This document shows, piece by piece, positions 36,315-48,059 of a DNA stretch of 64,000 bases. The notes beneath the pieces are model-generated. The model made no database searches. It saw nothing but the letters and a program-made list of their open reading frames with translations, and was not told where the DNA came from. Origin of the DNA: Acidobacteriota bacterium (lineage in GTDB: Bacteria; Acidobacteriota; Terriglobia; Bryobacterales; Bryobacteraceae); assembly GCA_017307505.1 (NCBI GenBank), contig JAFKEE010000027.1, forward strand, positions 62,001 through 126,000, in the 5' to 3' direction. A program made the translations under genes and the position numbers. The first letter of the stretch is position 1, and every line of letters starts with the position of its first letter.

Positions 36315-37058
36315 ATGAAACTCACACTCCTTCTGTTCGCATCCGCCGCTGTACTTTCCGCCCAAACACCCGCCGCCGAGCCCTCCGAACTTTCGAAGCT
36401 CAAGACCACCGTCGAACGCCAGGAGCGTACTCTCAAGGATTGGCCCAAACTCAATCGCTAACGGGCCGAGAACGCCACTGTCGCCGCGCCCGCAGCCGGC
36501 GAGGAGCGCGTCGTCTTCATGGGCGATTCCATCACCGACGGCTGGGGCCGCCGCTACGGCAAGTTCTTCCCGGGCAAACCGTATATCAATCGCGGCATCA
36601 GCGGCCAGACGACTCCGCAGATGTTGCTGCGCTTTCGCGCCGACGTCATCAACCTGCACCCGAAGGTGGTCGTAATCCTTGCCGGCACCAACGACATCTC
36701 GGGCAACACAGGCCCCATGACCTTGGAGGAGACCGAAGCCAACCTGATGTCGATGGCGGAACTTGCCCGCGCCAACGGCATCCGCGTGGTCTTGTCCGCC
36801 TTGCTGCCCACCTGCGACTACATCCGCCCGCAGACGGAACGGCGCCCCAACGAGAAGATTCGGGAGCTCAATACCTGGATGCGCGGCTATGCAGCCGGTA
36901 CAGGCGCCATTTACCTCGACTACTTCACGCCTTCCCTCGACGAAAAACAGGTTCTCAAGAAGGAACTCACCTACGACGGCCTGCACCCGAACGAAGCCGG
37001 GTATGAAGTGATGGGACCCCTGGCCCAGAAGGCCATTGACGCTGCCCTGGCGAAGTAG
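36315..37058 (+). pseudogene. GDSL/SGNH hydrolase gene interrupted by one in-frame TAA
   Basis: The frame opens with ATG and a signal peptide (KLTLLLFASAAVLSAQTPA), reads to DWPKLNR, meets TAA at 36459-36461, then continues without a frame change into RAENATVAAP and a complete SGNH hydrolase. The hydrolase shows GDSITDGW (catalytic Ser), GTNDISG (block III Asn) and DGLHPNEAGYEVM (block V Asp/His). Related exported GDSL proteins have DW..L.RYR.EN here, so TAA most simply replaces a tyrosine codon. A shorter cytosolic product could start at the ATG of 36519, but it would begin at the catalytic block and lack the signal. It is therefore annotated as broken, pending a check for sequencing error. 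Confidence 0.8.
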
Positions 37059-37065
37059 GCCATCC

Positions 37066-39246
37066 ATGCGGTACGCTCTGCTCGCATTCACCGGCCTTCT
37101 GGCCACGGCCTCCGCTCAACCGCAGCAGGACCTCGACATTCTCCTTCGATCCCTGCCCGCGTCGAACACGAAGATTACCGGCCGCATTAATGCCAGGGAC
37201 AAGAGCTGGGAAGAGTGGCAGCGCCGCACCGGCGAACTGCCGCCTGACTTCTCGAAACTGCCCAAGCGGCCGTTCCTTCCGGATCCTTTTGTCGATGTCA
37301 AAACCGGATCCGCCGTCCGCACACGGGCCGAGTGGGCGGCGCAGCGCGAGCACGTCCGGTCTCTCTATGAACAATGGGTCTTTGGCCGGATCCCACCGAA
37401 ACCCTCCAACCTGAAGGTCACCGTCCAGCGTGAGTCCAAAGACGGTGCGCTGACCATCCGGGAAGTCCTGCTCGAGTTTGGCCCGGAGCACAAAGCCCGG
37501 CTCCACGTGCAGCTCATCCTTCCGCCAGGCAAGGGGCCGTTTCCCGTTTTCCTGACGAACCATCCCCGCACCAGGGCCTGGGTGAGCACTGCTGTGCGCC
37601 GAGGCTATATCGGAGCCGTCTACCAGGCAATGGACCCGGTCTATGGGTTTGAGGATGACAGCGAGACCTTCATCGAAGCGTATCCGGATTACGACTTCTC
37701 CTGCCTCGCCCGCTGGGCCTGGGCCGGCATGCGCGCGGTCGATTTCCTGGAGACCGTCCCCGAAGTCGACAAGGCCCGCATCGCGATCAGTGGACATTCG
37801 CGCAACGGCAAGCAGGCGCTGCTGGCCGCTGCTCTGGACGAACGCATCGGCGCGATCGCTCTCTCCAGCGGCAACACCGGGGAAGGGAATCCGTGGCGTT
37901 TCACTACGGACGCCTTCTTCAACGAGAGCCTGGACGGCATCACCACCAACTTCCCTCATTGGTTCCATCCGCGCCTGCGCTTTTTCTCGGGCCGCGAGAA
38001 TCAATTGCCCATCGATCAGAACCTGCTGATGGCGATGGTGGCTCCGCGCGGACTGCTACTGGCGTCCGCCTACTCGGAAGGGCAGGGCGCTCCCTTCGGC
38101 TTTGAGCAGGCGTACCGCAGCGTGAAGCGCGTTTACGATTGGTTTGGAACGCCCGGCAAGGTCGGTCTCTCGCTGCGCGCCGGCGAGCATCCAACTACCG
38201 CGGAAGACATCGAGAAGTACGTCGACTTCTTCGACCTCGTCTTCGGACGAGCCACCGGCAAACCGCCGGAAACCTGGATCCTAGGCTACGATTTCGACAC
38301 CTGGAAGCGGCTCAGCGGCGAGACCGCGGCCAAGCCAGGCCCGGATCCCATCCGCTATCTGCTCGGTGACGAACCGGCCGGACTGACTTACCCGGCAGCC
38401 TCCGCCATCAAGGCTTCCGCCTTCTCCAGTGATGGCTGGTTGGCCGATCTCTATCACCGGCCGTTGCAGATTCCCGGAGCGAAGTATGCGCCCATCGCAT
38501 TCGGCGACGATCTCAAGGCCGACCTGTACCTGCCCGCTGCCCGAGTCGGCCAGGGCCAGCGTGTCCCGGCCGTCATCTGGTTGCATCCCTACAGTCATTC
38601 CACCGGCTACTCCCGGCAGGGCCGGCGCCCGATTGAAGAGTTGGTGAAGCGCGGCTTTGCTGTGCTGGCCTTCGACCAGATCGGCTTTGGCACCCGCATC
38701 CACCAGCAGAAGGAGTTCTACCGCCGCTATCCCCACTGGTCGCTGCTCGGAAAAATGGTCGCCGACACTCGTGCCGCCGTTGCCGCCATGCGCAGCCTGG
38801 ATGTCATCGATCCTGGAAAGGTCTACCTGGCAGGATTCTCTCTGGGCGCTCGCGTTGCACTCTGGACCGCTGCCCAGGAGCCCAACGTCACCGGTATAGC
38901 CATGGTTGGCGGCTTCCAGCCCTTGAAGCTTTCCCAGCCCGGCGACGGCTCCGAGGGAATCCGCCACTTCTCCCATCTGCACGGCCTGATGCCCCGTATG
39001 GGCTTCTACCTGGGCAGGGAAGCGCAGTTGCCCGCTGACGAGAGCGACGTGCTGGCGCGCCTTGGCTCGCGTCCGGTCCTGCTCATCAGCGGCACGCTCG
39101 ATCATTACGCGCCGGTCGATCAGGTGCGCCGCGGAGTGGCCGGCCGCACAAACGTGAAACTCCTCACCCCGGAGGACTTCCACCGGGACACGCCGGCCAG
39201 CATCACGGCCACAGCCGACTGGCTGGCAGCGCAGGCACAGAAGTAG
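37066..39246 (+). CDS. Bimodular esterase: CE15-like glucuronoyl esterase fused to dienelactone-hydrolase-like domain
   Basis: A 726-residue exported protein (signal YALLAFTGLLATASAQ). The N-terminal module (about residues 60-420) has ISGHSRNGKQALLAAALDERI, with nucleophile Ser245 in the G-x-S-R-x-G-K motif of glucuronoyl esterases, and GEHPTTAED near the expected His. These enzymes cut lignin-glucuronoxylan ester bonds. The C-terminal module (about residues 470-726) is a second alpha/beta hydrolase: VPAVIWLHPYSHSTGYS, AGFSLGARVALW (Ser592) and SGTLDHYAPVD with a late His in EDFHRD. The ATG at 37066 lies 7 bp after the GDSL gene's stop, implying co-transcription. Confidence 0.82.
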   Translation: MRYALLAFTGLLATASAQPQQDLDILLRSLPASNTKITGRINARDKSWEEWQRRTGELPPDFSKLPKRPFLPDPFVDVKTGSAVRTRAEWAAQREHVRSLYEQWVFGRIPPKPSNLKVTVQRESKDGALTIREVLLEFGPEHKARLHVQLILPPGKGPFPVFLTNHPRTRAWVSTAVRRGYIGAVYQAMDPVYGFEDDSETFIEAYPDYDFSCLARWAWAGMRAVDFLETVPEVDKARIAISGHSRNGKQALLAAALDERIGAIALSSGNTGEGNPWRFTTDAFFNESLDGITTNFPHWFHPRLRFFSGRENQLPIDQNLLMAMVAPRGLLLASAYSEGQGAPFGFEQAYRSVKRVYDWFGTPGKVGLSLRAGEHPTTAEDIEKYVDFFDLVFGRATGKPPETWILGYDFDTWKRLSGETAAKPGPDPIRYLLGDEPAGLTYPAASAIKASAFSSDGWLADLYHRPLQIPGAKYAPIAFGDDLKADLYLPAARVGQGQRVPAVIWLHPYSHSTGYSRQGRRPIEELVKRGFAVLAFDQIGFGTRIHQQKEFYRRYPHWSLLGKMVADTRAAVAAMRSLDVIDPGKVYLAGFSLGARVALWTAAQEPNVTGIAMVGGFQPLKLSQPGDGSEGIRHFSHLHGLMPRMGFYLGREAQLPADESDVLARLGSRPVLLISGTLDHYAPVDQVRRGVAGRTNVKLLTPEDFHRDTPASITATADWLAAQAQK

Positions 39247-40163: not shown

Positions 40164-41005
40164 CTCCTCAGGATGGCCCATTTCAGCAGTTCCGCGTGCG
40201 ATAGACCCTGCGGCGGATCGAATCCCAGAAATCGCAGCGCCGCCGCAACGGCCGGAGCCGGCTGGGACGAGTCGACAGGTGCGGCCCCGGTCTGTTTGCT
40301 CAGCTTCTCGCCCATCGGATTCCGGACCACCGGCACGTGCTGGTAGCGCGGCTCCGGATAGCCCAATAGCCTCTGCAAATAGATCTGCCGTGGGGTGGAT
40401 GCCAGCAGATCCTCACCGCGCACGACATCCGTGATGCCTTGTTCCGCATCGTCGACGACCACCGCCAGTTGATACGCGAAGTAGCCATCGGCGCGGAGCA
40501 GCACGAAGTCGCCTACCTCGGCCAGCAGGTTCTGCTTCTGCCGTCCGAGCCTTCTGTCCGTGAACATGAAGGTCTCCTCCGGAACACGCACCCGCCACGC
40601 CCGCGCTTTGCGTCCGGCCGGCAGTCCGTTCCGGCAAGTGCCCGGATACGGTTTCTCGCCACTGGGTGCGATCACAATCGAGGAGTCCGCAATCTCCTTC
40701 CGCGTACAGCCGCAAGGATAGATCTGCCCCGAAGTCCGCAAACGCTCCAAAGCAGCGCCATACAATTCCTTCCGCTGGCTTTGGTAGACCACCGGGCCGT
40801 CCCAGGTGAGCCCAAAAGCTTCCAGTGTGCGCAGGATCTCGTCCGCCGCCCCGGGCACGCTGCGCGGTTCATCAACGTCTTCCATCCGCACCAGCCACTC
40901 ACCACCGGCGCGCCGCGCGTCGACATAGCTCGCAATAGCCGCAGCCAGGGATCCCTGGTGCAATGGGCCGGTCGGCGATGGGGCGAAGCGTCCTCGATAC
41001 GGCAT
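40160..41005 (-). CDS. gluQ: Glutamyl-Q tRNA(Asp) synthetase
   Basis: A 281-residue GluRS catalytic-domain paralogue without an anticodon-binding domain, which attaches glutamate to queuosine in tRNA-Asp. The HIGH-like motif is FAPSPTGPLHQGSL and the KMSKS-like motif is GEKLSKQTG. Zinc ligands fit YPCGCTRKEI and GTCRNG. WRVRVPE and VVVDDAEQGITDVVRGEDLL complete the family profile. First gene of a two-gene unit with psuG, transcribed away from the aminopeptidase homologue. Confidence 0.94.
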   Translation of the reverse strand: MPYRGRFAPSPTGPLHQGSLAAAIASYVDARRAGGEWLVRMEDVDEPRSVPGAADEILRTLEAFGLTWDGPVVYQSQRKELYGAALERLRTSGQIYPCGCTRKEIADSSIVIAPSGEKPYPGTCRNGLPAGRKARAWRVRVPEETFMFTDRRLGRQKQNLLAEVGDFVLLRADGYFAYQLAVVVDDAEQGITDVVRGEDLLASTPRQIYLQRLLGYPEPRYQHVPVVRNPMGEKLSKQTGAAPVDSSQPAPAVAAALRFLGFDPPQGLSHAELLKWAILRR

Positions 41006-41177: not shown

Positions 41178-43832
41178 ATGAAAGTCCGCTCCGCCTGTCT
41201 TGCCGCCATCTGCCTGTTGGGCACACTGCCTGTTGTCAACGCTCAACCGGAGACGGCACCCCCTTCCGGCAACTACAGCGCCGACCGTCCTGTCGATTTC
41301 TTGCACATGAAGCTGGAGTACCACTTCACGGCCAAAGAAATCGCCGAACGAGTGGCCGAAGGACGAGTCACTTTCACCCTCACGCCCATCGCCAATCCCG
41401 TCCGCTCCCTTCGTCTCGATGCCGTCGACATGCGGATCCTCGACACCCAGGTGAACGGGGAGACGGTGACCTTCAGCTACGACGACAAATCCCTGGAGAT
41501 CCCCTTCGCCGCTCCGGTCGAGCCCGGCCGCAACGTCGACGTCACGGTGCACTTCCGCGTCGAACGCCCCGATCGCGGCCTCCACTTCATCCTGCCCAAT
41601 GCCAACGATCCCCAGAAACAGACCGTCGTCTACACGATGGGTGAAGGGATGGATGCGCGCCACTGGCTGCCCGCACACGACTGGCCGAACGAGCGCTGGA
41701 CGTCAGACCTTCTCATCACCGTGCCCAAAGGCTTCTCGGCCGTCTCTGTCGGCAAGCTGGTGGGGGCCACGCCGGCCGGCGACGAAGTCAGCTGGCACTG
41801 GAAGAGCGAGCAGCCCACTGATCCGCACATGCTTGGCTTCGCGGTTGGCCGCTACGTCAAACTGGAGAATACCTGGCGCGGCCGCCCGGTCCTGGCTTTC
41901 GTGCCCGCCGGCAAAGAAGCCGCGGGCCGCTACACGTTCCGCCGGGTGAATCAGATCCTCGACTTCTACTCCTCGCTCACCGGCGTCGACTACCCCTACG
42001 ACTCCTTCGCGCATGCCGCCGTGACTGACCATCATCACCGCGGCATGGAGCACGCCGGCTTCTCCATGATCGATCCGGCCATGTTCAGCACCGGACCCAA
42101 CGACGATGGCCTGGAACCGCTGGAACCTGGCTGGCCCGGCTATACCATCGAGACCAACCTGGTGGCCCATATGCTCGCCCATAGCTGGTTCGGCGGCATC
42201 GCCAGTTACCGCAACGCCTCCCAGGGCTGGTTGAACGAAGGCTTCGGCACCTATCTCCACATGGCCTGGGCTGGCCATGCCGACAATGAAGCCGTCTTCC
42301 AATCCCTCATGCGCGGCGCGGCCCAGAGCCTCTCGGCCACGGACTCCAGTGAAACCGGCCGCCCGATGGTCTGGCGGCAGTTCAATCAGCCGATGGAGGT
42401 TTTCCAGTACGACGGCGGCAAGATCTATTGGAAGGGCGCCTGGATCGTCCACATGCTGCGCAGCCAGCTTGGCGACAAAGTCTTCTGGGGTGGTGTAAAG
42501 AACTACTTGAACGATCATCGCTGGGGAAGTGTAGAAACAGCAGATCTGCGCCGGGCGCTGGAGAAGGAATCGGGCCGCGACCTCGAGCGCTTCTTCGATC
42601 AATGGGTATACGGCAAAGGCATCCCGCGCCTCAAGGCCGCCTACCGCTGGGATCCTGTGAAGAAAACCGCTACGCTCACCCTGCAGCAGACGCAGCGGAT
42701 CGCCGCGGACAGCCCCGCCTTCAACCTGCCCATCGAACTGTACTTCCGCGTGGCCGGAAAGGACGAATGGCGCACGGTCGAACTCGACCGCCCGACTCAG
42801 GATTATCCGTTCTCCTTCGACTCCGCCCCCGAGGCCTTCGCCATCGACGCCCACGGCAAACTGCTCTCCACTCTGACGGTCGAAACCCCACGTGCCATGC
42901 TCGAATGGCTCGCCACCAGTGGACCCACGCCCCTGGCCCAGATCCGTGCCGCTGAGGCGCTCGGCAACCAGACGGCCAGTTCCTCCATCTCGGCCCTCTC
43001 CCGCCTGTTGCTTTCACCGACCGCCCTCTGGCCCGTGCGCCAGGTCGCGGCGACGGCCCTGGGCCGCCTTCAGATGCCCGAGGCCGCGCAGGCGCTCCTC
43101 GACGCGGAGAAGTCCGGCATCGCCGATCCGAGAGTGCTCAGCGCCGTCCTGGCTTCGCTGTCGGCCTATCCCTTCAACGTTCCGGCCCACCAGGTGCTCG
43201 TCCGCTACGCCACGGCCAGCCCCGTCGACAAGCTCCAGGCCATGGCCGCCCGCCAGTTGGGGCGCATGAAGGCCACGCCTGATCTCCAGAAAGCCAGCCT
43301 GACGCTGCTGGTAAACACGGCGAAGTCATCGCCTCGGCCAATGGTCCGCGTCGCCGCTATCCAGTCGCTGGAACAGGCGGACGCTGTCTCCGCCTACGAC
43401 ACTCTCTCGGACCTCGCCACCAAGCCGGGCGATCCCAATATCCGCAGCCGGGCCATCTCCGCCCTGGGCGTATTGGGCCGCGACGAGAAGCTTCGCGAGC
43501 GCACGTTCATCGCGCTCTGCGGGTGGCTCGGCGATCCCGACTACGCGGTCCGTCCTTCGGCCGCCCGTGCCCTCGGCCGGTTGGGCGATGCACGAGCCAT
43601 GGGACAACTCACCATCGCCGCCAGCAGCCCGCGCACCGTGCTGGAGAAGGAAGCACTGGAAGGCGCGCTGCGCAGCTTGCGCAGCGTCCCCGATCCGCGC
43701 GTGCTGCCCGCGGGCGTGGTCGACCGACTGGCCAGTATGGAGAAGGAGAATGCGCAGTTGAAAGAGCGGCTGGCCGATGTCACTAAACGCCTGGGTGCAC
43801 TGGAATCAAAGAAAGAGACGCCCGCGAAATAA
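41178..43832 (+). CDS. M1-family aminopeptidase homologue with inactivated HExxH and C-terminal HEAT repeats
   Basis: An 884-residue exported protein (signal RSACLAAICLLGTLPVVNAQ). Residues 30-550 follow the M1 gluzincin plan: an N-terminal beta domain, then GMEHAGFSMID where active enzymes have GxMEN. The zinc site reads HMLAHSWFG with an E at exactly the X18 spacing (His331, His335, Glu354). Met332 replaces the catalytic Glu. Residues of about 620-830 are HEAT-like repeats, and the chain ends in a coiled coil (MEKENAQLKERLADVTKRLG). The likely role is zinc-dependent binding or scaffolding rather than peptidase activity. GAAGGGAAGGG precedes the ATG. Confidence 0.85.
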   Translation: MKVRSACLAAICLLGTLPVVNAQPETAPPSGNYSADRPVDFLHMKLEYHFTAKEIAERVAEGRVTFTLTPIANPVRSLRLDAVDMRILDTQVNGETVTFSYDDKSLEIPFAAPVEPGRNVDVTVHFRVERPDRGLHFILPNANDPQKQTVVYTMGEGMDARHWLPAHDWPNERWTSDLLITVPKGFSAVSVGKLVGATPAGDEVSWHWKSEQPTDPHMLGFAVGRYVKLENTWRGRPVLAFVPAGKEAAGRYTFRRVNQILDFYSSLTGVDYPYDSFAHAAVTDHHHRGMEHAGFSMIDPAMFSTGPNDDGLEPLEPGWPGYTIETNLVAHMLAHSWFGGIASYRNASQGWLNEGFGTYLHMAWAGHADNEAVFQSLMRGAAQSLSATDSSETGRPMVWRQFNQPMEVFQYDGGKIYWKGAWIVHMLRSQLGDKVFWGGVKNYLNDHRWGSVETADLRRALEKESGRDLERFFDQWVYGKGIPRLKAAYRWDPVKKTATLTLQQTQRIAADSPAFNLPIELYFRVAGKDEWRTVELDRPTQDYPFSFDSAPEAFAIDAHGKLLSTLTVETPRAMLEWLATSGPTPLAQIRAAEALGNQTASSSISALSRLLLSPTALWPVRQVAATALGRLQMPEAAQALLDAEKSGIADPRVLSAVLASLSAYPFNVPAHQVLVRYATASPVDKLQAMAARQLGRMKATPDLQKASLTLLVNTAKSSPRPMVRVAAIQSLEQADAVSAYDTLSDLATKPGDPNIRSRAISALGVLGRDEKLRERTFIALCGWLGDPDYAVRPSAARALGRLGDARAMGQLTIAASSPRTVLEKEALEGALRSLRSVPDPRVLPAGVVDRLASMEKENAQLKERLADVTKRLGALESKKETPAK

Positions 43833-43840
43833 GCGGCGGC

Positions 43841-44596
43841 TTAAGCGAGCAGGACCCGCACGCCCTGCGCTTCCAGCATCTGCCTGTACTCCAGGCTGAG
43901 TTCAGTATCCGAGATCACGATATCGGCGACATCCAAAGGGGCCAGCGGCACCATCGCCGCACGCCCGAATTTCGTGTGATCGGCCACCAGGATGACGCGC
44001 CTCGAGGCCTCGATCATCTTGCGTTCGGAACCCACCAGCAGCGTATTGTTGTTGCTGAATCCGGCCTCGGTCACGCCGCCGATGCCCATGATCAGGACAT
44101 CCGCGCTCACGCTGGCCAGCATCTGCTCGCACAGTTGTCCCAGCATGACGCGCAGCCGTGGATACAGGTAGCCGCCGGTGAGCGTCAGCTCAATCTGCCT
44201 GGACTGTTCGAATACCTCGGCAATCGCCAGCGAGTTCGTCAGCACGTGCAGCGAGCGTGTCACCAGCTCTCGTGCCACAGCGGCCGCCGTTGATCCTCCA
44301 TCGAGAAGAATTGTCTGTCCGTCTTCCACCAGGCCGGCGGTCACGCGGGCGATGCGCCTCTTTTCCTCAGCCATGCGGCCGCTCTGCCAGGTGTAGTCCA
44401 GCAGTTGGTCGTGGGTCTGCAGGGCCAGCGCGCCGCCGTGTACCCTCTTGAGGACGCTGTCTTTTTCCAGCAGGCTGAGGTCCCGTCGCACGGTCGACTC
44501 GGAGGCGTTGAGCAGGCTGCACAACGTCTCCAGGTCGACGAACTCCTGGGATTCAAGGATCTCCCGGATTTTCAGCAGGCGCCCAGCCGCTTTCAT
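43841..44596 (-). CDS. DeoR-family transcriptional regulator of the BMC operon
   Basis: A 251-residue regulator. The N-terminal winged helix has VDLETLCSLLNASESTVRRDLSLLEKDSVLKRVHGGAL. The C-terminal sugar-phosphate sensor (DeoRC) has TILLDGGSTAAAVARELV, LHVLTNSLAIAEVF, ELTLTGGYLYPRL and ILVADHTKFGRAAMVPLAPL. Such regulators respond to phosphorylated sugars or glycolytic intermediates, which suits control of an aldolase-containing microcompartment operon. It is the last gene of that operon, 7 bp after the aldolase stop. Confidence 0.93.
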   Translation of the reverse strand: MKAAGRLLKIREILESQEFVDLETLCSLLNASESTVRRDLSLLEKDSVLKRVHGGALALQTHDQLLDYTWQSGRMAEEKRRIARVTAGLVEDGQTILLDGGSTAAAVARELVTRSLHVLTNSLAIAEVFEQSRQIELTLTGGYLYPRLRVMLGQLCEQMLASVSADVLIMGIGGVTEAGFSNNNTLLVGSERKMIEASRRVILVADHTKFGRAAMVPLAPLDVADIVISDTELSLEYRQMLEAQGVRVLLA

Positions 44597-44603
44597 TGGA
44601 AAA

Positions 44604-45683
44604 TCAGCTGGTCTTCTTGTTCAGTGCGGCGAGCACCGCATCGGCTACGCTCTGCACCAGCGACTCCATATCGTCGCCCTGCGCAGCGGGTGGCTTCAAG
44701 CCGCCCGCGCCGGGCCGCGGAGGCAGGGAGATCGGCGTCTCCGGATTCATGATGTCGCACACCTGGCACTCGTCAAGATCAAACCGGGCATCGGGGATCC
44801 CCAGCTTCTGCTTGATGGCCAGCAGGTCGGTTGCCTTGGCGCCCGGGATCTGCGAAATCGGCGCGCCCAGTTGGCTCGCGATCAACAGCGTGTGGCAGTA
44901 GGTCTCCACGACCTCGGCATACCACTCGGCATGGGTCACCGTATCGGCCCAGCAAACGATGCCGTGATTGCCCAGCAGCACGGTGTTGTGCGTCCGGACA
45001 TACGGAATCACGGTCTCGGCGAACTTCTGCGTACCAGGGGTCTCGTAGGGCGACACCGCAATGCTGCCCACGAACACTTCGTACTCAGGGATCACACAGT
45101 TCGGAGGCACGCGGCCCGTAATCGCATACGCAGTCGCATGCGGCGGATGGCAGTGCACCACACCCTTGGCGGCCGGCACGGCCTTGTAGATCTCCAGGTG
45201 GAGCAGGATCTCACTGGTTCGCGGACGGGCGCCATACAACTGCGTGCCCTTCAGGTCCACGATGCACAGGTCCGCCGGAGTCAGATCGCCTTTGCTCATC
45301 AGCGTGGGCGTACAGATCACCGCGTCTTCGCCGATCCGGTAGCTGATATTGCCGCCGTTGCCGTCGACATACTGCCGGTGCCACAGCTTGTGCCCGGCAT
45401 GCACGATCTCGGCCTTGATTGCTTCCGCTTCCGGCGAGAAAAACAACTTTTCCCACTGTGTACCCGCACCCACAACATTGGCGGCTGCCGGCGTGGCAGG
45501 GGTTGTGGAGGCCGAACCGGACCCGCTGCTGACCTTCATCTGATGGGAGGCCACCAGATCCTGGGCGGACGGGGTAAACACGGCGTTCTCACGGATCAGC
45601 AGTTCCTTCGCGCCACTGCGCGCTGCTGCCTCCACATCTTCGGCGCAGATCACCTTGAGGTCTTTCAGATCCGCACTCTTCAT
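44604..45683 (-). CDS. Class II aldolase (fuculose/rhamnulose-1-phosphate aldolase type), BMC cargo
   Basis: A 359-residue protein in three parts. Residues 1-60 (KSADLKDLKVICAEDVEAAARSG, then IRENAVFTPSAQDLVASHQ) resemble the short N-terminal domain found in BMC-associated aldolases and corrinoid adenosyltransferases. The aldolase domain has GNGGNISYRIGED, KGDLTPADLCIVDL, VVHCHPPHATAYA (zinc histidines) and LLGNHGIVCWADT. The C-terminal amphipathic helix DMESLVQSVADAVLAALNKK looks like a shell-targeting peptide. It would split fuculose-1-P or rhamnulose-1-P to DHAP and L-lactaldehyde. The ATG at 45683 was chosen over an upstream in-frame start inside the preceding gene. Confidence 0.9.
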   Translation of the reverse strand: MKSADLKDLKVICAEDVEAAARSGAKELLIRENAVFTPSAQDLVASHQMKVSSGSGSASTTPATPAAANVVGAGTQWEKLFFSPEAEAIKAEIVHAGHKLWHRQYVDGNGGNISYRIGEDAVICTPTLMSKGDLTPADLCIVDLKGTQLYGARPRTSEILLHLEIYKAVPAAKGVVHCHPPHATAYAITGRVPPNCVIPEYEVFVGSIAVSPYETPGTQKFAETVIPYVRTHNTVLLGNHGIVCWADTVTHAEWYAEVVETYCHTLLIASQLGAPISQIPGAKATDLLAIKQKLGIPDARFDLDECQVCDIMNPETPISLPPRPGAGGLKPPAAQGDDMESLVQSVADAVLAALNKKTS

Positions 45684-45711
45684 GCTCTTACCTCGAATTC
45701 CATATGTCCCG

Positions 45712-47160
45712 TTAGATGACCCGCAACGCCCCGCCGCCAATCGTCAGTTGGCGTTCACGGGTAAACGTCAGCGGCGTCGTCACGCCCTCGCCCGTAGGCG
45801 TCGCAATACTGAAACTCAGATAGCCGGCGCCATCCGTGCCCAGCGCCGCCGTGCAGGGAGCGTTGTGCACAAACAGAGTGGTGTTCATGGCCCGGGCCAT
45901 CTTCGTCACGTTCTCGATGTTTCGCGAATGGATCAGCGCCGTGTGGCGGTAGCCATGCTCGGCCTTCACCGAAGCGGCAATGCCCGCGTTCACGTCCTTC
46001 ACCTTCACCAGCGGCAGGAACGGCATCATCTGCTCTTCCTGCACAAAGGCGTGATCTTCACTCGTCTCGCCGAACAGCAGCGGAGTGCCCGCCGGTACGC
46101 TCACTCCAGCCGCGGCCGCCAGAACTGAGACATCCTTGCCGATGAGCTCCTTGCGCACATGCGCATGGCCGCAGCCCTTGCCCTCGCCGTCCCAGCGGAA
46201 GGCTGCTTCGGTCAGCCGCTCCACCGCCGCTACGTCGAGCTCTACCGCACCGGCGCGCTTCATGGCCGCGATGAACGCATCCCAAACCTGCGCCACCACG
46301 AACACTTCTTTCTCGCCGATGCACAGCAGATTGTTGTCGAACGATGCGCCCGCGATGATCGCCTTCGCCGCCTCGTCCAACTGCGCCGTCTCGTCCACCA
46401 CCACCGGTGGATTGCCCGGACCTGCGGCAATCACGCGCTTGCCGGACTTGCCCGCCGCACGCACCACCGCCGGACCGCCGGTCACGCACAGCAGGGCGAT
46501 GCCCGGATGATGGAACATCTCTTCCGCCGCGCGGATGCTCGGATCCTGCATCGTCACCAGGGCATTCGAAATACCCGTGGCCCTTTCGATCTCCCGGTTA
46601 AATACCTGCAGAGCCCGCGCCGCCACTTTGGCTGCCGCCGGATGCGGGCTGAAAACCGCCGTGTTGCCCGAAGCAATCACGTTGATCGCGTTGCTGGCCA
46701 TGGTCGGCACGGAGTGCGTTGCCGGCAACACCATTCCGATTACGCCCCACGGCGCGCGCTCGATGATGCACAGGCCGGAAGCATCGCTCCGCGACTGGCT
46801 GGTCATCGCTTCCACGCCCAACACGTTCTTCACGATCTCGAGCTTAGCGATCTTGTGGTCCAGCCGGCCCAAGCCGGTCTCTTCCAATTCCAGCCGCGCC
46901 CACTCCTGCTTGTTCTGCTCGCACAGGCGCCGGATGATCGTGATGATCTGCCCGCGCTGCTCCAGGCTCAGCGCCGCAATCTTCACCTGTGCCTCGGCCG
47001 CGGCCTTCACTGCTGCGTCCACTGAGGGCAAAACGCCGTCACCCAGCGGAGCTACTGCCTTGGGCGAGGCCGGTGCAGCCGCGGGCTTTGCCTGTTGCTG
47101 CAATCGGAGCAGGACCTGCTCGGCGATCTCGGCAACCAGTTGATCCCGATTGATTGTCAT
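45712..47160 (-). CDS. CoA-acylating aldehyde dehydrogenase (PduP/EutE type), BMC cargo
   Basis: A 482-residue aldehyde dehydrogenase. The N-terminal helix INRDQLVAEIAEQVLLRLQQ plus a Pro/Ala linker is a canonical encapsulation peptide. The catalytic cysteine lies in DNNLLCIGEKEVFVV. The CoA-binding AAGPGNPPVVVDET region is also as in PduP/EutE. The C-terminus has TGEGVTTPLTFTRERQLTIGG as in BMC enzymes. Lactaldehyde to lactyl-CoA (or another C3 aldehyde to its acyl-CoA) with NAD is the inferred reaction. No PduL or PTAC gene follows to recycle CoA. Confidence 0.93.
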   Translation of the reverse strand: MTINRDQLVAEIAEQVLLRLQQQAKPAAAPASPKAVAPLGDGVLPSVDAAVKAAAEAQVKIAALSLEQRGQIITIIRRLCEQNKQEWARLELEETGLGRLDHKIAKLEIVKNVLGVEAMTSQSRSDASGLCIIERAPWGVIGMVLPATHSVPTMASNAINVIASGNTAVFSPHPAAAKVAARALQVFNREIERATGISNALVTMQDPSIRAAEEMFHHPGIALLCVTGGPAVVRAAGKSGKRVIAAGPGNPPVVVDETAQLDEAAKAIIAGASFDNNLLCIGEKEVFVVAQVWDAFIAAMKRAGAVELDVAAVERLTEAAFRWDGEGKGCGHAHVRKELIGKDVSVLAAAAGVSVPAGTPLLFGETSEDHAFVQEEQMMPFLPLVKVKDVNAGIAASVKAEHGYRHTALIHSRNIENVTKMARAMNTTLFVHNAPCTAALGTDGAGYLSFSIATPTGEGVTTPLTFTRERQLTIGGGALRVI

Positions 47161-47184
47161 GGTGACTTAGCCTGACCCCGGTGC

Positions 47185-47460
47185 CTACTTCGGCAGTACG
47201 TGCTTCACATCACCGTGAGGCCGCGCGATCACGTGGACGCTCACCACTTCGCCCACCGGCCGTGCCGCCGCCGCGCCCGCTTCCACGGCCGCTTTCACCG
47301 ACGCAACATCGCCCGTCACGATCGCCGTGCACAGCCCGCTGCCCACTTTCTTCCAGCCCTTGAATTCAACGGTCGCCGCCTTCAGCATCGCGTCCGTGGC
47401 GTACACCAGGGGTACCAGGCCCTTGGTTTCGATCATTCCAATCGCTGCTGTGATTTCCAT
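47185..47460 (-). CDS. BMC-H shell protein (single BMC domain)
   Basis: A 91-residue Pfam00936 hexamer-forming shell protein. [49 protein letters not shown] and [16 protein letters not shown] are the diagnostic strands and helices; GSG lies at the predicted central pore. It would tile the facets of the microcompartment. It sits between the tandem shell protein and the aldehyde dehydrogenase. Confidence 0.96.
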
Positions 47461-47483
47461 GTGAGTTTCCTTGTCCCCGGCGA

Positions 47484-48059
47484 CTAGCGCAGAATCCCTT
47501 CCACCAGGCCGTCATGCGGCCGCGGAATTACGTGCGAGGCAACCAGTTCTCCCACCCGCCGAGCCGCATGCGCTCCGGCATCCACGGCCGCCCGCACACT
47601 GCCGACATCGCCGCGCACCACGGATGTCACAAAACCGCCGCCGATCTCGATGCTGCGGATCAGTTGTACGCTGGCCGCTTTGCACATCGCATCGGAAGCT
47701 TCAATCAGACCCACCAGGCCGCGCGTTTCAATCAGACCGACGGCCATCTGCCCGTCCGGTTCGGCCGGGGTGCCGTTGCCCTTGCGGGCCGCCTGCTGCA
47801 GGAACAGATCCAGACCGTCGTGCGGACGGGGAATGACCTGGACACAGGAGAGTTCACCAACACGGCGCGCCGCGGCTGCACCCACGTCCGTGGCCGCCTT
47901 CACCGCCGCCACGTCGCCTTCCACAAACGCCGTCACCAGGCCGCTACCCACCGTTTCCCAGCCGGAAAACGTCACGTTCGCTGCCTTCAACATCGCGTCC
48001 GAGGCCTCAAACAGGGCGACCAGGCCTTTGGTCTCGATCATGCCCAACGCTTGTCTCAT
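47484..48059 (-). CDS. BMC-T shell protein (tandem BMC domains)
   Basis: A 191-residue pseudohexamer-forming shell protein with two full BMC domains. Domain one has [20 protein letters not shown] and [20 protein letters not shown]. Domain two, from about residue 103, has [20 protein letters not shown] and [20 protein letters not shown]. Both end in VIPRPHDGL. The pore loops differ (GSG versus GGG). Tandem-domain trimers often form gated or metallocofactor pores; a lone cysteine (SCVQVI) is present. It is the first gene of the operon, with AGGAGAAAGG before the ATG. Confidence 0.96.

Follow-up and report, generated by a model that had tools for sequence, protein, structure and literature searches.

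What becomes of an M1-type zinc pocket when the glutamate that acts as general base in HExxH is gone and the zinc ligands, the catalytic tyrosine and the amine-binding glutamates are still in place? The question is raised by a gene in the 64,000-nucleotide stretch of acidobacterial DNA analyzed here (hereafter the window), located at 41178..43832 on the plus strand, as are all the features below unless stated otherwise. Its translation and domain matches describe an M1-fold protein of 884 amino acids with an HMxxH motif. An alternative, longer frame begins at 41004; the start at 41178 is supported because the frame of a 95% identical orthologue (L088) is open for just five codons further upstream. 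The protein appears to be exported, as judged by eye from an apparent signal peptide on residues 1-22 (41178..41243), which lies within a stretch of low pLDDT (residues 1-31).

Domain searches placed a Peptidase_M1_N match on residues 57-209 (41346..41804) and a Peptidase_M1 match on residues 252-476 (41931..42605), the latter domain scoring 113.3 bits against a curated cut-off of 27.7. A beta-rich third domain follows at about residues 481-570 (42618..42887; secondary structure of the model, with DUF3458 below its cut-off), then a HEAT repeat arm at about residues 572-835 (42891..43682; domain matches and model) and a C-terminal helix on residues 845-878 (43710..43811; model). The AlphaFold2 model, computed from an alignment of the 46 proteins that best match the window protein, has a mean pLDDT of 90.5 and is less sure at residues 401-420 (block means of 75 and 82). 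Its top structural matches are M1 enzymes, with factor F3 (1z1w) at Z 44.4 (rmsd 5.2, 668 residues aligned) and PepN (2dq6) at Z 43.7 (rmsd 4.0, 730 residues aligned). By sequence, the best match is the puromycin-sensitive enzyme PSA.

The zinc motif reads HMLAH at residues 331-335 (42168..42182), with Met332 encoded by ATG at 42171-42173, at least two substitutions away from any Glu codon. The third ligand, Glu354 (42237..42239), stands within NEGF and is separated from His335 by 18 residues, matching HExxHx18E. The initial annotation was thus correct in describing an HExxH changed to HMLAH through an ATG codon, with ligands His331, His335 and Glu354 exactly spaced. Upstream, DHHHRGMEH (residues 284-292, 42027..42053) stands where D-F-x-x-G-G-M-E-N is normally read; Glu291, the GxMEN glutamate that binds the substrate amine, is kept and the motif Asn is His292. 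In the N-terminal domain, a profile alignment matches Met154 and Glu156 (41637..41645) to Gln178 and Glu180 of PSA, and Glu291 to PSA Glu319. PMC10343166 describes Gln178 as an S1 subsite residue and Glu180 and Glu319 as probably binding the substrate N-terminus. PSA Ala315, likewise in S1, aligns with His287. Finally, a short insert containing Asp412 leads, by alignment, to Tyr417 (42411..42428), at the position of the catalytic tyrosine that serves the transition state.

The Met332 group comprises five members: the window protein, L088, L089, L007 and L008. Three of the five are close relatives from one genus, in which the gene is present in 3 of 9 genomes with the window's own counted (G000, G001 at 95% and G007 at 79% identity), always with HMLAH. 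The two members from other phyla, at 39-43% identity to the window protein, are L007, from a Limisphaerales MAG of the Verrucomicrobiota (42%, HMMAH, nearly full length and cut by the contig end), and L008, from a Planctomycetota MAG (39%, HMLGH). In all five, the zinc ligands (H-xxx-H-x18-E), Glu291 and Tyr417 are kept and the general-base Glu is replaced by Met332. Across the 46 aligned proteins, composed of three clade rows and 43 HExxH rows, Glu291, His331, His335, Glu354 and Tyr417 are invariant (46/46), while Glu156 is shared by the clade and 32 of the 43 other rows.

We then considered how singular the substitution is. A scan of genome contigs with exact peptide patterns taken from the window protein gave 249 relatives, of which the best 80 were kept. 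Once nine duplicate loci, including the window's own copies, had been removed, the census comprised 140 tblastn matches spanning the site: 126 HExxH, 4 HMxxH, 9 NQITR and 1 EALAS. Outside the clade, the general-base position is thus Glu in 126/126 of the matches with intact zinc ligands, and the matches with another residue there are also devoid of these ligands (NQITR, 9/9, plus L066). The same census corrects the reading of GMEHAG, which begins at residue 289 and was indeed present as the initial annotation had stated for GxMEN: taken alone it does not indicate inactivity, since 15 of the 126 HExxH matches read GMEH. In a 58-row tree (quick method without bootstrap, rooted at the midpoint and built on the full alignment, active-site columns included), the five members are split from all other rows by a branch with an SH-aLRT of 100, requiring a single label change, and their stem measures 0.91 changes per column. 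Nearest to them in the tree (97) is a set of eight HExxH rows, from Verrucomicrobiota or Planctomycetota where the origin is named. A strain-specific mutation or sequencing error is excluded by the five members, the three phyla and the at least two base changes needed; in the homologue alignment, Met is fixed in the clade (5/5) and close relatives with Glu were not found.

Two other cases of a lost site were encountered along the way. A second, separate pseudo-M1 family, in which HExxH reads NQITR and the third ligand is Asn, occurs in 9/9 genomes searched of the genus (L106:1102-3057 on the minus strand, with a match at G000:C24:63661-64395, and L092, L094, L095, L099, L100, L101, L107 and L114); L106, the one member scanned, also has TPR repeats. 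The other, L066:7983-10604 (+), is a Gemmatimonadetes M1-HEAT protein whose zinc site is lost, with EALAS for HExxH and Arg for the third ligand.

Genome surveys, run with strict cut-offs and at most five candidates scored per genome, such that distant members may escape, indicate that the HMxxH group is rare among the genomes surveyed. Within the family, clade-level scores (at least 1687 bits, the next being 531.6) were obtained in 3 of 237 genomes (E ≤ 1e-60), and the 27 lower-scoring matches that were read at the site (L117-L143) are all HExxH. The orders of L007 and L008 hold one member each, in 1/320 and 1/161 genomes, respectively (E ≤ 1e-200), and samples of 396, 392 and 387 genomes from the three phyla gave no further member (E ≤ 1e-165). 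Plasmids gave two matches, at 25.6% and 28.4% identity. The clade looks small and old, spanning three phyla, and a description of an HMxxH M1 clade was not found in the open-access literature searched.

The loss of Glu bears directly on activity. In aminopeptidase B, Table 3 of PMC2241622 lists 0% activity for Ala, Gln, Asp or His at this position. The proposal of the initial annotation that the protein binds zinc without hydrolysis agrees with this table as far as loss of hydrolysis is concerned; binding of zinc we infer. That the protein is still a normal aminopeptidase, only slow, with its water activated by some other residue, might be imagined from the retention of Tyr417, Glu291 and Glu156. 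We regard it as very improbable, however, given the Glu in all 126 other ligand-keeping matches and the dead aminopeptidase B mutants of that table.

Met332 does not stand alone, and the clade differs from its relatives well beyond the Met332 and GMEHAG singled out by the initial annotation. Comparing the three clade rows with the 43 HExxH rows, we found 24 positions where the clade is invariant and at least 50% of the outside rows share a different residue. Position 154 is Met in the clade and Gln in 37/43 outgroup rows; position 285 is His, against Phe in 39 and Tyr in 4; position 292 is His, against Asn in 40/43; position 332 is Met, against Glu in 43/43; and position 340 is Gly, against Asp in 38 and Asn in 5. 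Likewise, His217 (41826..41828) faces Tyr in 42 of the 43 rows with a gap in the remaining one, and His279 (42012..42014) faces Gln in 42/43. His167 is a weaker case, the outgroup having Tyr in 22, Phe in 14 and His in 3 of 43 rows. Among these new residues are Met at two positions (154 and 332) and His at five (167, 217, 279, 285 and 292). In addition, His286 and His287 are invariant across the five members, the latter position being varied in the outgroup. Asp412, five residues before Tyr417 and facing a gap in 37/43 other rows, is also invariant in the five. From their alignment, Met154, His217, His279, His285, His292, Met332 and Gly340 would lie in or near active-site motifs. Note that the 24 positions also include some without known catalytic role, such as Val257 (Thr in 43/43) and two in the HEAT part, and therefore not all concern the pocket; moreover, the stem being long, some of the fixed changes may be drift.

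One candidate explanation of such concerted change is a re-purposed zinc enzyme, with zinc acting as a Lewis acid in another reaction, or with a new base (Asp412 or one of the new His) replacing Glu, and with a changed substrate. The 24 fixed positions, the insert with its invariant Asp412 and the low dN/dS of the M1 part (see below) argue for it. There is also a precedent in leukotriene A4 hydrolase (LTA4H), where, as stated in PMC3405069, mutating E296 or Y383 selectively blocks peptidase activity, so that this Glu is dispensable for other reactions at an M1 zinc site. Counterarguments are the inactivity of aminopeptidase B with Asp or His at the Glu position itself, the lower certainty of the model around Asp412 (residues 401-420) and a gene neighborhood that is not shared across the clade. 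We hold this explanation to be possible, if on the unlikely side. The same residues might serve differently, with the Met and His around the pocket binding copper or some other non-zinc metal in redox chemistry or metal handling; this idea could draw on the two fixed Met, the five fixed new His and the invariant His286 and His287. The classical zinc triad is nevertheless unchanged, copper families are absent from the Pfam matches of the 14 window neighbors scanned, and this option seems to us highly doubtful.

To evaluate which parts of the protein are maintained, we computed dN/dS by the Nei-Gojobori method between the window gene and L088 or L089. Whole-gene ratios are 0.057 and 0.11, those of residues 231-480 are 0.034 and 0.040, and those of the HEAT part 0.12 and 0.15, for L088 and L089, respectively; the L089 ratios are rough because synonymous divergence exceeds 1 in each domain from residue 31 onward. 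In the L088 comparison, the N-terminal domain (0.030) and the third domain (0.026) have similarly low ratios, and residues 841-884 are without nonsynonymous change. The M1 part therefore has the lowest ratio only against L089, and in the L007-L008 pair it is level with the N-terminal domain. Between phyla, identity reaches 49-54% in the M1 part (231-480), 41-55% in the N-terminal domain and 32-38% in the HEAT part, and seven HExxH rows compared pairwise follow broadly the same order of domain conservation. The protein is under purifying selection, and its M1 part is held at least as firmly as its HEAT arm.

This ordering matters for the idea, put forward in the initial annotation, of an inactive fold in the manner of TAF2, with HEAT repeats and a coiled coil suited to scaffolding. 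TAF2, a subunit of TFIID, has an M1 fold that is not known to have peptidase function or to keep the zinc ligands. As far as the fold goes, the likeness is a fair one: a sequence match to TAF2 was obtained (E = 5e-30), and 7edx_B, which we take to be TAF2, has the highest query-normalized TM-score (0.77; 26th by E-value) among the 50 Foldseek matches listed. The window protein, however, retains the whole zinc and amine-binding set, as do all five members. The architectural signs are weak as well. HEAT repeats are unpersuasive as an indication of scaffolding since 38 of the 46 aligned proteins carry HEAT_2, nearly all of them HExxH (43 are HExxH relatives), bearing in mind that this set, chosen from the best matches of the window protein, is biased toward the same architecture. 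The C-terminal helix is present in the three same-genus members and not in L008, and in L007 the sequence runs off the contig in this region. A pure scaffold, in which the M1 domain would be structural only and the HEAT arm and C-terminal helix would carry the function, does account for the presence of these elements and for the TAF2 matches; with all zinc and amine-binding residues kept and the HEAT part under less constraint than the M1 part, we consider it improbable.

The explanation that we favor, though tentatively, is that of a non-canonical aminopeptidase homologue whose zinc pocket would bind peptide N-termini without cutting them. Canonical aminopeptidase catalysis would have been given up while the pocket was kept with zinc bound, and Glu156 and Glu291 would still bind the ligand through its free amine, be it the N-terminus of a peptide or another amine. 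With no general base, the zinc water would not be activated and the ligand would be held instead of being cut. As it does in active M1 enzymes, the HEAT arm would wall the cleft on one side, and the choice of first residue would depend on the new Met and His; the protein would act in the periplasm or outside the cell as a receptor or trap for peptide N-termini. This proposal relies on Met332 in 5/5 members against Glu in 126/126 other matches, together with invariant ligands, Tyr417, Glu156 and Glu291; it also relies on the dead Glu mutants of aminopeptidase B (PMC2241622) and on general-base mutants of M1 enzymes that, according to the titles of their PDB entries, hold a peptide (6ifg, E323A; 3b7s, E296Q). 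As the S1 Gln is replaced by Met, the ligand need not be a peptide. Moreover, the fixed new His and the invariant Asp may mean a different chemistry, which counts against mere binding, and new zinc chemistry is a close rival of the peptide-binding explanation. In its broadest form, a clade in three phyla would have remade the M1 zinc site, with two Met, five His and an inserted Asp, into a class of metalloprotein whose chemistry is new for M1 and possibly involves a second metal; this we view as speculative and rather unlikely.

The gene neighborhood indicates no ligand, as none is conserved. In the three same-genus genomes, the gene lies tail to tail with genes for a DeoR regulator, a class II aldolase, an aldehyde dehydrogenase and BMC shell proteins, while the genes upstream differ in G007. 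Homologues of these genes were not found around L007 (14.1 kb) or L008 (9.6 kb), where the gene content was assessed by eye, and a functional link was rejected on account of the convergent arrangement and of a neighborhood not seen around L007 and L008. In the window, this cluster occupies 43841-48059 on the minus strand and includes two BMC shell proteins, one with a single and one with two BMC matches; it resembles the sugar-degrading microcompartment loci of Planctomycetes and Verrucomicrobia. On the other side, at 37036-39246 (+), a 736-residue frame has an N-terminal half matching a glucuronyl-esterase family and a C-terminal half matching alpha/beta-hydrolase families, and is possibly a two-domain esterase.

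Should the protein prove to trap peptides in nature, bacteria would possess a peptide receptor derived from M1; should it carry new chemistry, more adaptability would have to be granted to the M1 zinc site. The closest systems for comparison are the HExxH proteins with HEAT repeats of the nearest branch (L078, L009, L010, L011, L021, L023, L148 and L149), at about 28-32% identity to the window protein, which have Glu at 332 and GMEN, unlike the clade. Taken together, the outgroup rows of the alignment carry Gln154, Tyr217, Gln279, Phe/Tyr285 and Asp/Asn340 and mostly lack the Asp412 insert. L148 and L149, sharing the M1_N, M1 and HEAT domains with the window protein, are sister-group proteins encoded in the genomes of L007 and L008, and let the changes be examined singly. 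PSA, tricorn factor F3, E. coli PepN, ERAP and IRAP have the same fold, zinc triad, Tyr and amine-binding glutamates, whereas the window protein has Met for the base Glu and for the S1 Gln. LTA4H has the M1 fold and zinc site in common with it (3ftu, Z 43.1), and E296 mutants of LTA4H are reported to keep epoxide hydrolase activity; the window protein, in contrast, has a HEAT_2 arm and scores 80.7 bits for the LTA4H family (NCBIfam TIGR02411), below the cut-off of 761.7. With the base removed naturally and the zinc ligands and amine-binding glutamates kept, the clade resembles the general-base mutants engineered for holding substrates and named in the titles of 6ifg and 3b7s.
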